Source: Natronomonas sp.
Lineage (GTDB): Archaea > Halobacteriota > Halobacteria > Halobacteriales > Haloarculaceae
Assembly (NCBI RefSeq): GCF_028274965.1
Contig: NZ_JAQCNO010000071.1
Span: forward strand, 1 to 64,000
Length of the DNA: 64,000 nt
Reading direction: 5' to 3'
The notes under the pieces are model-generated. The model searched no databases. It had not been told where the DNA came from and saw only the letters and a program-made list of their open reading frames with translations. The first letter of the stretch is position 1. Each line of letters opens with the position of its first letter. This document shows, one piece after another, positions 20,628 through 25,949 of this stretch. The translations under genes and the position numbers were made by a program.

Positions 20628-23600
20628 TCAGACGAAGTTTCCGAGCCCCGTCTGTTCCTGCCCGCTTTCGACCTCCTGCCAGGAGATGTCGAGCGCCTCG
20701 AGGATGCGGGCGATCGGCCCCTTCAGCGTCTTGTCGAGCATCTTCTCGTAGTCGACCTCGAAGGCGTCGGGGACCTGGTCGTCGAACTCGAAGCAGACGA
20801 CGTCCGGATCGCGCTTGAACTCGCCGTACAGCGGGTCCCGGGAGGGATCGAGGTCCCGTTCGGCCTCGAGTTCCCTGAAGAAGGCGGGGTGGACCTTCTT
20901 CAGGTAGAGCCGCTTCGGCTTCGATCCGCTGGAGAAGTTCGTCCCCAACAGCAGGTTCGCGTACTTCGCCCCCCGGACCTGGGCGGTGTCGGTGTCGTAG
21001 TTGTCGAGTTTCTTCCCGATGCCGCCGGGGATGCCGATCTCGTCGTAGCTCACGTCGCCGCGTTTGACCCGCTGGATCACGCCGTGTACGTACTCCTTGA
21101 TCTCCTCGGGGTCGGTTCCGGTGACGATCATCTCCAGTACCTCCTTTTGTACCTCCTTGGTGATCGGCGCGATGTCCGAGCGCTTGTACTCAAAGCCCGT
21201 GATGTCGATGTCGTCGACGTCCTTGCCCTCCTTCCAGATGATGTTGCCGGCGTAGCGCTTCTTCTTGCCGGCCTGGAAGAACCGCCGGTAGAGCTTCTCG
21301 AACTCGATCTGAAACCGGTGCGTCTCGGCGTTCAGCCGCTCGGCGAAGGCGTCGTAGGCGTCGTTGATGTGGTCCTCGATCTCGAAGGACTGCGCGATGG
21401 CCTCCTCTTTGTCGACCCCCCGTCCAAGCTCCAGCATGACCGAGTCGGTGTCCCCGTACGTGACCTCCTTGTCGAGTTCGCCCGCGGCCGACTCGGTGAA
21501 CTCGATGACCTCCCGGCCGGTCGCGGTCACGGCCGACCCCATCTCCTTGTCGTAGAGGCGGAACCGGTCCCATCCCAAAACGCCGTATAAGGACTGACCG
21601 ACGAACTGAAACTTCCCGTTTCGGCCGGCCAACAGCGTATGGTTGTCGGCCACAGTGACACAGTAGACGCCGTCGTCCGCGTTCGTCCGTTCGGCGCTCC
21701 GGTGCATTCGAAGGGTGTTCTTCGCGTTTGTCGTGACGTAGATTCGGTACGTATCCGCGTTTTCACCGTAGCTCGCTGTCAGTCCGAGGTGCGCACAGAG
21801 CCGTAACACGTCGTCTCGAAGCCGTTCGCTCGTGGTACTGTAGCGCCACGAGTTCGGCTGTCGATCCCCGTCTCCGTCGATGAGCGTCTCCAAGAACGCC
21901 TCTCTCTGTGATCGAGAGGCCTCGAAGACCAACTCCGGGATCCGTTTGTTTTCGCTACCGTCGCCGCCGAAATCTTCGAGGAGGTCGCCGAGAAGCGCGG
22001 AGGTGAACTGGTGGCACCGGTCGTCGGTGTAGTGGTCGAAGCCCATCCGATCGAGGAGCGCTCCGATCGAGCCGTGCGTGTCGCCGCCGTCGGCCGCGAG
22101 GACTTTCTGTGCTATTTTGACGGTTGTGGAAGAGCCGCTCAGTTTCCCGTCGAACTCCGTTTCGGCCGACGTGTACACGCTCCCCTCGGTGATGTACCAG
22201 GCCAACAGTTCGAGGAAATCGTCCCCGTCGTACGTCCGGGGGATCCACTTCCGGCCGGACTCGCTGTGGACGTAGCTCCGCTCGCAGACCGACTCGATGT
22301 ACTCGCGGTGCCTCTCGAACTCCTCGGCGGTGAACACGTAGCCCGTCTGACCGAGGTCGTTCTTGCGGACTCGCCGCGGCGTCCAGCCGAGTTCGGTCGT
22401 GAACGTCCGGCCGTGTACCTCCGGGCGAACCCATACCTCGTAGTCACCGTCGACGAGTTCCGTTAGATCGATCTGTTCGAGTTCGGTACCGGTCGGTCCG
22501 TCCCAGTCGTGCGGCAGTTCGTAGTTCGTCGCCCGGTCGAGTTCGCCGGCCTCGACGAACCGGTACTCGTCTTCCGTTGTTCCGTTCGTCTCGTTTTTCC
22601 GGACGATCATCCGGTGGTTCGGGGTCACGCTGAAGTCGATCTTGCTCGTCTCGATGTCGACTAGCTCGCCGCGGTAGTCCGGGTACTCGTGCGTCTCGAC
22701 GACGGGTTTGGTCTCCATCTCCATCGTCTCCGGGTCTAACGAATAGACTTCGTCGCCGATACCGAGATCGCGGATGTTTCGGATCCCGGACGGCGTGAGG
22801 ACGTCCGTGTCCGGGGTGAAACAGTTCATGATCACCTTAACCGCCGACTGCTGTCGGTCGAACGTCTCGTAGACGTCCGTCCCGGGGTCGTGGTCGTTCC
22901 GGAGCGATTTCTTTCGTTCGCGCTCCTCGAGCAGCTCGTCGACCATCTTCCGGATCATGCCGTCGGGCTCCTTCCGGAAGTGCGTCCCGTTCGGCGCGAC
23001 GTACGTCTCGCCGTCGTAGGCGTCGGGATCGACCTTCGTCTCCGGCGACGCGTTGATCGTTACCATGCACATCGGGTAGAGAGATTGGCCGACCCACTGA
23101 AGATTCCCGTTCCGCCCTGCGAGCACGACGTGATTGTCTTTCGCGGTGAGACAATGAACCTGCCCGTCGTGGGTTTTTACCGTCGCGTTTGCCTTCTTCA
23201 TCGAACCCTGTTTACCGATGGAGACGTACCACGTCCCGTCCGGTTGTTTCGAAACAGTCGGTTTCTCCCCACACTGTACTGCGAGGCGAACGATGTCCCG
23301 TTTTAGTTGGTCGCTCTTGGTCCAGAATTTCCGGAGGCCGCTATCAGTACGGCTCCCGTCGCCGTCGATCAGCGTCTCTAACAGCACTCGTAGATGACTC
23401 GCATCGAGTTCGAACACCCACTCGGGGAGGTGTTTCTCGTCGTATCCGTCTCCGCAGTTATCGAGGAACCAATCATAGAGGGGACGGTTCGAAACGTTGA
23501 ACCGGTCATCGCCGACGTTATACCTCAATCCCATCCGTTCTAAGAGCGCGCGGATCGCAGCTTGCCCGTTTTCGTCCTGCTGGTGGAGCACGATCCCCGG

Positions 23601-25865
23601 TGACTCACGAATGAAGCTCCCCTCCGTGACGAACCAGCCCATCAGTTCGAGCCAATCGTCCATACCGAACGCCAGCGGCATCTCGGTGTGGCCCCGATCG
23701 TATTTCAGAAAGACCTGATCGGCATGCTGTTCGATACTGTCGCGGTGCTTCCGGTAGACGTCGACCGGGATCAGATACTTACCGGTCTTCGCTTCGGTCG
23801 CAGCCAGTCGTGAGGTACCGTTTGCCCGGTCTAACTCAGATTCGACACTAGTGGGCATCGCGGCCCGGAAGCCGGTGAGTCCCTCGTGTGCGTAGACGAC
23901 AACGCGGCAGTCGTCGATCCTCTCGACGAGTTGGAACTGCTCGCGGGTTGCGCCCGACATCGGTTCGTGATTCGGGAACGCGAACCGCTCTGCGTCAGGG
24001 ATGTCTCGGTATTCATCGAACCCGTAATCGGATGGCTCGAGCCCATCCCATCCTCGTGTCTTCGAGAGCAGGAATCGGTGGTTTTCTGTCACCTTGAAAT
24101 CATGTGTGTTCCCTTCGATATGATGTAGTTCCCCGTACTGATTCTCGTACGATTGGGTGTCGACAACCGGTTTTATCTCGCATTCGAAGGTCTCCGGATC
24201 GAGCGTGTACACCGGGTCGCCGGTCTCGATCTCCTCGATGTTCCGCACCCCATCCGGCGTCGCCACGTCGGTATCGCCGCTGAAACACTTCAGATCGAGC
24301 ACTGAGACCATCTCCTTGACGCCGGAGATCGGCTCGAAGACGGCCCCGCCCTCGTACTCCTCGCTTTCCTGTTGGCCCTTCGAGGGGAGCGCGAACTCGC
24401 CGTGGATCTCGTGGAGGACGTACATGTCGACCGCATCGCCGGGCGTCGTCGCGTCCTCCAGTTTGCACCCGACGAAGGAGGCGACCTCCTCCCAGAAGGG
24501 GATGATCTCCTGTTTGCGATCCAGCTCCACGCACAACTCGACGTCGCGGAGGTTGTACTCGATGAGCCGCTCGGGGTCGTCCTCCCAGAGGTCGCCGATG
24601 TCGCCGGGGTAGCGCTCCTTTCCGACCCCCAACTCGGTCTCGCCGACGGCATCGAGCCGGTAGGAATCGAGCTCCGAGAACTGCGTCCGCTGGTACGCAT
24701 AGAGGAGATCGAAGACGACCCGTCCCTTGATGTTCGGGCCGCCCCACCCGGAGTCCCAGACCTCGTTCACCCGGGAGAGCCGATCGGAGTCGAGGCCGTC
24801 GTCGCGCCCCGAGAGGCGGCCGATCCGGTCGATGAGGTAGGGCGCGTCGAAGTCGTCGAAGTTCCAGCCGGTCAGCACGTCCGGGTCGGTCGTTTCGACG
24901 TACTCGACGTAGTCGACGAGCATCGCGGCCTCGTCCCCGAAGGTCCGGATGTCGGCCTCAAGGGGGCCCTCGCCGATCGGATCGTACCCCTCGACGACGT
25001 CGGGGCCAGGGACGCCCTCGGGGGATTCGTACAGCCAGACGACGTACTCGTCGCGGTAGGAGTCGTGGCTCGTCAGACAGACGATCGTCTCCTCGCCGTC
25101 CTCGGGGAAGCCGTGGCGGTCGTCGACCTCGATGTCGAGGGTGTGGACGCGGCTCTCGGCCTCCACGTCGACGGGTTCGATCTCGGCGTGGTGGACCTTC
25201 AGGCTCCCGTCCTCGCGGCGCCGTTCGGGGACCCGGATCCCGCTCGTGACGTCCTTGTCGATGAGCAGCCGGTTCGGAAAGAGGATGTCGGCCTCGTAGT
25301 GCTCGAAGCGATCGCGGAGGTTGCCGACGTCGCGGGGCGTCTGCCCGAACACCTTGAGGAGTCGTTCGCCGCGGATCGACTCGTAGACGACGAGTTCGTC
25401 GGCCGCGCGATCGTCGGCCCCGTCTCCGGCGTCACTCGCCCGGTCCCCGTGCGTCTCGAGTCCGGTCAGGCGGTCGTGTTCCAGGCGCGAATCCACCACG
25501 TCGGCCGCGGTGAGCGGATCGGCGGCGTCGGCGGCGAGATCGACGTCGTCGACGGGCGTATAGAAGTACGGCCGGAAGGCGTGGACGCGGACGTGGACGC
25601 GCTCGTCGTCGCCGTCGGCGTTCGGCGTCCGCCCGAAGACGTGAACGACGGGGTGCTCGTCGTCGCCGCTGCCCTCGACGGTGTAGTCGACCTGCGTGAC
25701 CGCGCACTCGACGTGTCCCTCGGCGTCGGGGTAGCGCCGATCGGAAACGTCAACGACCGTCGCGTCGTCGTCATCGGCGCCGGCGACCGCGGCGGCCTCG
25801 GCCGCCGGCCGCTCGTCGCCGGTTCCGTCCGCGGCACCGAACTCCCCGAGCGTTCCCTGCTCCAT
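20628..25865 (-). CDS. polB: Family B DNA polymerase I with two inteins
   Basis: The 1745-residue precursor is the family B replicative polymerase. The start MEQGTLGEFG is chosen over a Met 11 codons upstream because haloarchaeal PolB proteins begin this way. Exonuclease motifs are HTLDIEVDD, GWNFDDFDAPYL and YNLRDVEL. Polymerase motif A (DLK/SLYP) and motif B (KVIMN/SLYG) are each interrupted by an intein; motif C is YGDTDS, uninterrupted. The AGKKKRYAG motif and a C-terminal QTGLGNF (PIP-like, for PCNA binding) follow. Without the inteins the mature enzyme would be about 934 residues, normal for the family. Splicing of both inteins is required for a working polymerase. Confidence 0.96.
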   Translation of the reverse strand: MEQGTLGEFGAADGTGDERPAAEAAAVAGADDDDATVVDVSDRRYPDAEGHVECAVTQVDYTVEGSGDDEHPVVHVFGRTPNADGDDERVHVRVHAFRPYFYTPVDDVDLAADAADPLTAADVVDSRLEHDRLTGLETHGDRASDAGDGADDRAADELVVYESIRGERLLKVFGQTPRDVGNLRDRFEHYEADILFPNRLLIDKDVTSGIRVPERRREDGSLKVHHAEIEPVDVEAESRVHTLDIEVDDRHGFPEDGEETIVCLTSHDSYRDEYVVWLYESPEGVPGPDVVEGYDPIGEGPLEADIRTFGDEAAMLVDYVEYVETTDPDVLTGWNFDDFDAPYLIDRIGRLSGRDDGLDSDRLSRVNEVWDSGWGGPNIKGRVVFDLLYAYQRTQFSELDSYRLDAVGETELGVGKERYPGDIGDLWEDDPERLIEYNLRDVELCVELDRKQEIIPFWEEVASFVGCKLEDATTPGDAVDMYVLHEIHGEFALPSKGQQESEEYEGGAVFEPISGVKEMVSVLDLKCFSGDTDVATPDGVRNIEEIETGDPVYTLDPETFECEIKPVVDTQSYENQYGELHHIEGNTHDFKVTENHRFLLSKTRGWDGLEPSDYGFDEYRDIPDAERFAFPNHEPMSGATREQFQLVERIDDCRVVVYAHEGLTGFRAAMPTSVESELDRANGTSRLAATEAKTGKYLIPVDVYRKHRDSIEQHADQVFLKYDRGHTEMPLAFGMDDWLELMGWFVTEGSFIRESPGIVLHQQDENGQAAIRALLERMGLRYNVGDDRFNVSNRPLYDWFLDNCGDGYDEKHLPEWVFELDASHLRVLLETLIDGDGSRTDSGLRKFWTKSDQLKRDIVRLAVQCGEKPTVSKQPDGTWYVSIGKQGSMKKANATVKTHDGQVHCLTAKDNHVVLAGRNGNLQWVGQSLYPMCMVTINASPETKVDPDAYDGETYVAPNGTHFRKEPDGMIRKMVDELLEERERKKSLRNDHDPGTDVYETFDRQQSAVKVIMNCFTPDTDVLTPSGIRNIRDLGIGDEVYSLDPETMEMETKPVVETHEYPDYRGELVDIETSKIDFSVTPNHRMIVRKNETNGTTEDEYRFVEAGELDRATNYELPHDWDGPTGTELEQIDLTELVDGDYEVWVRPEVHGRTFTTELGWTPRRVRKNDLGQTGYVFTAEEFERHREYIESVCERSYVHSESGRKWIPRTYDGDDFLELLAWYITEGSVYTSAETEFDGKLSGSSTTVKIAQKVLAADGGDTHGSIGALLDRMGFDHYTDDRCHQFTSALLGDLLEDFGGDGSENKRIPELVFEASRSQREAFLETLIDGDGDRQPNSWRYSTTSERLRDDVLRLCAHLGLTASYGENADTYRIYVTTNAKNTLRMHRSAERTNADDGVYCVTVADNHTLLAGRNGKFQFVGQSLYGVLGWDRFRLYDKEMGSAVTATGREVIEFTESAAGELDKEVTYGDTDSVMLELGRGVDKEEAIAQSFEIEDHINDAYDAFAERLNAETHRFQIEFEKLYRRFFQAGKKKRYAGNIIWKEGKDVDDIDITGFEYKRSDIAPITKEVQKEVLEMIVTGTDPEEIKEYVHGVIQRVKRGDVSYDEIGIPGGIGKKLDNYDTDTAQVRGAKYANLLLGTNFSSGSKPKRLYLKKVHPAFFRELEAERDLDPSRDPLYGEFKRDPDVVCFEFDDQVPDAFEVDYEKMLDKTLKGPIARILEALDISWQEVESGQEQTGLGNFV
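21594..22823 (-). mobile_element. Intein 2 of PolB (motif B site), 410 aa
   Basis: The extein AVKVIMN is joined to SLYGVLGW across 410 residues. The insert starts CFTPDTDVLTPSGIRNIRDL, has block B SKIDFSVTPNHRMIV and the endonuclease motifs LELLAWYITEGSVY and FLETLIDGDGD. It ends GRNGKFQFVGQ before Ser, again with Gly-Gln. Start, block B and end are clearly similar to intein 1, so the two are homologous. Only 87 extein residues separate them. The insertion point is the classical pol-b site. Confidence 0.95.
23085..24287 (-). mobile_element. Intein 1 of PolB (motif A site), 401 aa
   Basis: The extein VSVLDLK continues as SLYPMCMV after a 401-residue insertion. The insert begins CFSGDTDVATPDGVRNIEEI (splicing block A with Cys1), has block B NTHDFKVTENHRFLL, and two LAGLIDADG-type endonuclease motifs, LELMGWFVTEGSF and LLETLIDGDGS. 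It ends GRNGNLQWVGQ before the +1 Ser, so the last residue is Gln and the penultimate is Gly. The central DNA is visibly richer in A and T than the flanking extein. The endonuclease looks intact, so homing may still be possible. Confidence 0.95.
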
Positions 25866-25949
25866 GGCGCGACGGTTGGCGCTCGCGGGTAAAAACACCG
25901 GCGTTCGGCGCCGGAGGCCGGCGGCGTATCGCCGCTCGATACCGTGGGG

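Follow-up and report, generated by a model that had tools for sequence, protein, structure and literature searches.

Two related inteins in one haloarchaeal PolB gene: two same-site lineages and a probable ancient change of site

Introduction

When a single gene carries two inteins that resemble each other, one would like to know whether one of them gave rise to the other and, if so, whether this happened recently in that gene or long before the two came to share it. This question is raised by a family B DNA polymerase gene (polB) of Natronomonas sp., found in a stretch of 64,000 nucleotides that we call the window. The original prediction, made from this DNA alone, was that the similarity of the two inteins reflects the movement of one of them to a new site within the gene. 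Multi-intein PolB is already known in haloarchaea (PMC3024317, PMC10643990): the published polB inteins fall into alleles polB-a to -d (Soucy et al. 2014, PMC4071816; Naor et al. 2011, PMC3024317), and Haloquadratum walsbyi PolB has inteins at three sites.

Results

Layout of the gene and its inteins

The features of the locus, in the order in which the protein is read, are these (slashes mark splice junctions):

20628-25898, minus strand: polB precursor open reading frame, 1756 aa when read from the GTG at 25898
24288-25898, minus strand: N-extein, 537 aa, with the exonuclease domain and the start of the polymerase domain
23085-24287, minus strand: intein A, 401 aa, at site a in motif A (DLK/C...GQ/SLYP)
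22824-23084, minus strand: extein segment between inteins A and B, 87 residues
21594-22823, minus strand: intein B, 410 aa, at site b in motif B (IMN/C...GQ/SLYG)
20631-21593, minus strand: C-extein, 321 aa, with motif C (YGDTDS) uninterrupted

Because the gene lies on the minus strand, intein B ends at 21594 and intein A begins at 24287, and the lengths and sites originally predicted for the two inserts, as well as their spacing, all agree with the translation. Translation more likely begins at an ATG near 25865 than at the GTG, and the spliced extein has about 934-945 aa (945 from the GTG, about 934 from the ATG). Since motif C is uninterrupted, site c is empty in this protein. Pfam and NCBIfam place a Hint/intein_Nterm domain and a LAGLIDADG_3 domain in each intein, with PolB exonuclease and polymerase domains around them. 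Third-position G+C is 0.70 in intein A and 0.82 in intein B, below that of the extein (about 0.91).

Both sites are uninterrupted in the PolBs of five Natronomonas congeners that have no inteins, where they read SVLDL(K/R)/SLYP and VKVIMN/SLYG, again 87 residues apart, and to which the window extein is 81-83% identical over nearly full length. A and B are therefore in-frame insertions in a conserved host protein whose intein-free alleles are continuous. Each begins with Cys1 as the N-terminal nucleophile, has a block B of the TxxH type (TENH in A, TPNH in B) and ends in Gln followed by Ser+1. A penultimate His is found neither in A and B, which have Gly at that position, nor in any of the 30 site-a inteins collected below; because splicing without this His and with a terminal Gln is uncommon but known (PMC4031507), we do not count its absence against membership among the large inteins. 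LAGLIDADG motifs are retained in both, as had been predicted, namely LMGWFVTEGS and LIDGDG in A and LLAWYITEGS and LIDGDG in B, and in each case the acidic ends of the two motifs (TEG, GDG) are kept. An AlphaFold model of intein A (pLDDT 91) matched intein-endonuclease structures in Foldseek, best of all 2CW7 (PI-PkoII) and also TliVMA and PI-SceI, so that a Hint fold and an endonuclease fold are predicted for A from its model and for B through homology only.

Compared with their nearest relatives, the two inteins show dN of about 0.12 and dS of about 1.2-1.3 over the whole intein, a dN/dS of about 0.1, and A and B are under purifying selection. In the endonuclease half of each, dS is similar or higher and dN/dS is also about 0.1; with dN this low relative to dS even there, neither endonuclease looks to be decaying. 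A and B are genuine large (endonuclease-bearing) inteins of class-1 type, and the PolB sites that they occupy are of known kinds.

How alike are the two inteins?

The homology of A and B proposed at the outset is far beyond chance: blastp gives 205 bits and E=2e-66 for an end-to-end alignment of 428 columns with 32% identity. Identity is 47% in the N-terminal splicing region, 38% in the endonuclease and 55% in the C-terminal region. Of the shared motifs named in the original prediction, block B (VT-E/P-NHR) and the end (LAGRNG-x-x-Q-x-VGQ) are as described, and the start is shared too, although it had been quoted one residue short and should read CF-x-x-DTDV.

Similarity is 0.345 in A-B pairs taken from one genome and 0.342 in mixed ones; when 27 B inteins are ranked by their similarity to window A, that of the window itself comes no higher than 16th. 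Gene conversion or concerted evolution between A and B was therefore rejected, same-genome pairs being no closer than mixed ones; one of five regional tests gave p=0.02, uncorrected. The two target sites themselves are somewhat alike, and over 9 nt on either side their similarity ranks among the top 1-2% of all positions in this gene. As a driver of movement this was also set aside: little is common beyond the SLY codons and the similarity fades with wider flanks, so that it would have been permissive at best.

Kinship of the inteins at sites a and b

A profile of A and B was searched in 392 Halobacteria genomes, of which 143 matched, and from 60-odd PolB loci we cut a set of 30 site-a, 61 site-b and 23 site-c inteins. 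The A profile scores 156-335 bits on B inteins and the B profile 268-317 bits on A inteins, as against 2-60 bits for the 23 site-c inteins with the two profiles. Site-a and site-b inteins form a superclade with support of 100/99 in a tree with seven outgroup inteins of other genes, and of 93/91 when site-c inteins and the ribonucleotide reductase, DP2 and RpoA inteins of the window genome are added. These outgroups are those within reach of the profile search, without the PolB inteins of Thermococcus, Salinibacter and Methanoculleus, and the superclade might not hold if some other gene had a relative that evolves faster. Among the inteins found, those at a have their nearest relatives at b and those at b at a, with site c apart, which indicates that the family once, long ago, changed its site between motifs A and B.

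One may also consider that the a and b inteins have no special relation, and that their resemblance is what any two inteins with Hint and LAGLIDADG domains would show. The long outgroup branches would allow this, as would the published tree of 118 genomes, in which support between allele clusters is below 70% (Soucy et al. 2014, PMC4071816). We nevertheless consider it improbable, given the gap between the cross scores and those of site c and the support for the superclade. An unusual Gly-Gln end also links the two groups, being present in 30/30 site-a inteins and 50 of the 61 site-b inteins (the other 11 end in Gly-Asn or Ser-Asn) but in 0/23 site-c inteins, which start with Ser and end in His-Asn; the DP2 intein of the window genome, however, has the Gly-Gln end too.

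Inteins are known to be modular, and it might be that only one domain is common to the two groups, the endonuclease or the splicing part having been swapped between unrelated inteins. A lineage of site-b inteins typified by Halorutilus is indeed placed differently in the two domain trees. Yet both of these trees keep the A clade and unite a and b-type inteins to the exclusion of the outgroups (support 99 for splicing, 89 for endonuclease), and the identity between A and B is spread over their whole length, which makes a swap even less probable than the absence of any special relation.

Each intein groups with others at its own site

In a tree of 114 rows the 30 site-a inteins all fall into one clade (support 100), and a second clade (97) takes in 58 of the 61 site-b inteins. 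Window A groups with a site-a intein of a congener (L005, 81% identity) and window B with a site-b intein of a congener (L036, 82% identity). A second, more careful maximum-likelihood tree places the window inteins by site in the same way, and trees of the splicing domain and of the endonuclease domain both keep A and B separate, each with its own site. Constraining A and B to a sister relation lowers the log-likelihood by 536 units (p-AU 4e-13).

The check proposed with the original prediction, a tree of both inteins with the haloarchaeal PolB inteins, thus gave the outcome that had been named beforehand as refuting it, each intein grouping strongly with same-site inteins and not with the other. 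It speaks against a recent event, and of the suggested movement only an ancient change of site remains probable. That one intein recently cut the other site in the window gene or its lineage and copied itself there can practically be dismissed, for although A and B are homologous and their target sites have SLY codons in common, the sister relation is rejected, each intein groups with same-site inteins of other genera and families, and the longest DNA word that the two have in common is only 11 nt. The double occupancy of the window PolB is a meeting of two separate same-site lineages in one gene.

Very probably, then, these two lineages go back to one ancestor and one ancient change of site, apart from the site-c and other-gene inteins that were compared. 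We infer from the sequences a course in which Cys1 would undergo an acyl shift, the N-extein would be transferred to Ser+1, and the terminal Gln would cyclise as the exteins are ligated. The two-motif LAGLIDADG endonuclease of each intein would cut intein-free copies of its own site, and repair of the cut would copy the intein into the empty site. Each intein has very probably spread among haloarchaea within its own site, both vertically and horizontally, and a single switch between motifs A and B, by descendants of an ancestor common to both, would have taken place long ago.

Direction of the probable ancient change

A refinement compatible with two same-site lineages of common ancestry is that a Halorutilus-like intein moved from site b into site a. 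The Halorutilus-type inteins, from Halorutilus salinus and two related genomes (L029, L030, L032), are sister to the a clade in the careful tree (86/87), in the tree with site-c and window-genome inteins added (67/49) and in the endonuclease-domain tree (78). Site-b inteins are also the more diverse, occurring in cellular PolBs, in a second PolB and in six PolBs of viral contigs. In contrast, another alignment, that of the seven-outgroup tree, joins the Halorutilus-type inteins to the other b inteins (78/58), and the likelihoods of the two placements are about equal (p-AU 0.57). We regard the case for this direction as evenly balanced.

Distribution in Halobacteria

Intein presence is patchy, as the five intein-free congener PolBs illustrate, and the identity of an intein to those of other families at times exceeds that of the extein (for example with L009, 75% for B versus 70% for the extein). 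Among 28 genomes that have a site-a intein, 25 also have one at site b (Fisher odds 22.6, p=6e-11); because this co-occurrence was tallied by hand and kinship was ignored, no dependence of a on b is claimed. Most of the Asn-ending site-b inteins are shorter forms of about 353-364 aa, and the shorter forms in turn mostly have this ending, whereas Gly-Gln closes the site-a and the full-length site-b inteins; it seems from the sequences that loss of endonuclease length goes with a terminal Asn. When sequenced phages and plasmids were searched for close relatives of the inteins, none was found at high identity.

Relatives on viral contigs, in a second PolB and outside any host protein

A scan of viral contigs with a single sequence gave no matches, whereas a later alignment scan found site-b inteins of the same superfamily in the PolBs of six IMG/VR contigs (L195, L196, L197, L198, L199 and L207; in L207 the insertion point appears to lie one codon downstream, NS/CYG). 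Genome G241, whose main PolB has a site-b intein, encodes on a 136-kb contig a further, divergent PolB, and a related intein (L054:4084-5253, minus strand) occupies the equivalent site b of this second PolB as well.

The L054 intein is sister to a clade of free-standing genes, that is, open reading frames homologous to the PolB site-b intein over its full length. There are 16 of them, 15 in the tree and L083, from 16 Halobacteria genomes, with frames of about 413-463 codons (one of 700):

L047:3960-5222, minus strand: free-standing relative; others in L048, L049, L050, L051, L052, L053 and L076-L084

In the 15 that were aligned Cys1 is absent, and most have Gly-Gly immediately ahead of the intein-like start; they also lack the terminal Gln, with a stop within about six residues, while acidic residues are kept at both LAGLIDADG motifs. 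A model of one such protein (pLDDT 89) matches whole intein-endonuclease structures, and two pairs of these genes have a dN/dS of about 0.1. Most of the 16 loci lie within a few kilobases of genes for VirB4-like (4), VirD4-like (7) or NrS-1-type primase-like (5) proteins, some adjoining two of these. The free-standing relatives can be described as putative splicing-dead derivatives of inteins, many of them near conjugation-type genes. We met no account of this group in the literature that we searched, although that does not by itself establish it as novel.

Discussion

Like the haloarchaeal polB inteins already published, those studied here belong to the same gene and class, occupy several conserved sites and cluster by site as alleles. 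Compared with Soucy et al. (2014), our set draws on many more genomes, and joins a with b while leaving site c apart. By length (437 aa) our site c fits polB-c; our letters a and b may differ from the published ones. That study accepted no more than a single ectopic event, with Haloferax larsenii and H. elongans as the two possible cases (PMC4071816). Haloferax larsenii JCM 13917 (L132) has its only PolB intein of a- or b-type at site b, with no insert in motif C; this mismatch with the published listing may come from a site label or a difference between strains.

MCM-a and MCM-d (Turgeman-Grott et al. 2023, PMC10643990) are likewise two endonuclease inteins close together in one replication gene. 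They show low co-homing efficiency into empty alleles (PMC10643990), whereas here, judging by genome counts alone, an intein at site a is nearly always accompanied by one at site b.

The best solved relative of our inteins, both by profile (7e-16; 2e-21) and by fold, is PI-PkoII (PDB 2CW7), although the sequence similarity is almost confined to the endonuclease domain and it is longer (537 aa versus 401). PI-PkoII is a PolB intein of Thermococcus kodakarensis.

The free-standing relatives recall the HO/WHO proteins of yeast (PMC7282813), which are also intein-like and standalone, have no exteins, and have lost the C-terminal splicing residues while keeping the nuclease domain. Unlike HO/WHO they have no C-terminal zinc-finger extension, are archaeal, often sit beside conjugation-type genes, and are known from sequence and a model. 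One might see in all this a single superfamily of haloarchaeal inteins that has moved to new places time and again, between sites a and b of PolB, into the PolBs of viral contigs and a second, divergent PolB, and once out of splicing altogether, where an old family of free-standing proteins would form a prokaryotic parallel to HO/WHO; we would as readily doubt this broader picture as accept it.

New here are the related site-b inteins in PolBs of viral contigs and the 16 free-standing, apparently splicing-dead derivatives. The ancient kinship of a and b and the free-standing branch seem to us worth following. The former offers a supported case of an intein family that once changed its position inside one gene, which is considered a rare event, and the Halorutilus-type and viral-contig site-b inteins are lineages in which site change may be studied. 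The latter offers a way to study the making of an independent nuclease gene from an intein in prokaryotes.

The window genome has four more inteins, in ribonucleotide reductase, the PolD large subunit (DP2), RNA polymerase A'' and replication factor C (contigs C35, C22, C43 and C23; L258-L261), these gene names coming from a reading of the exteins.
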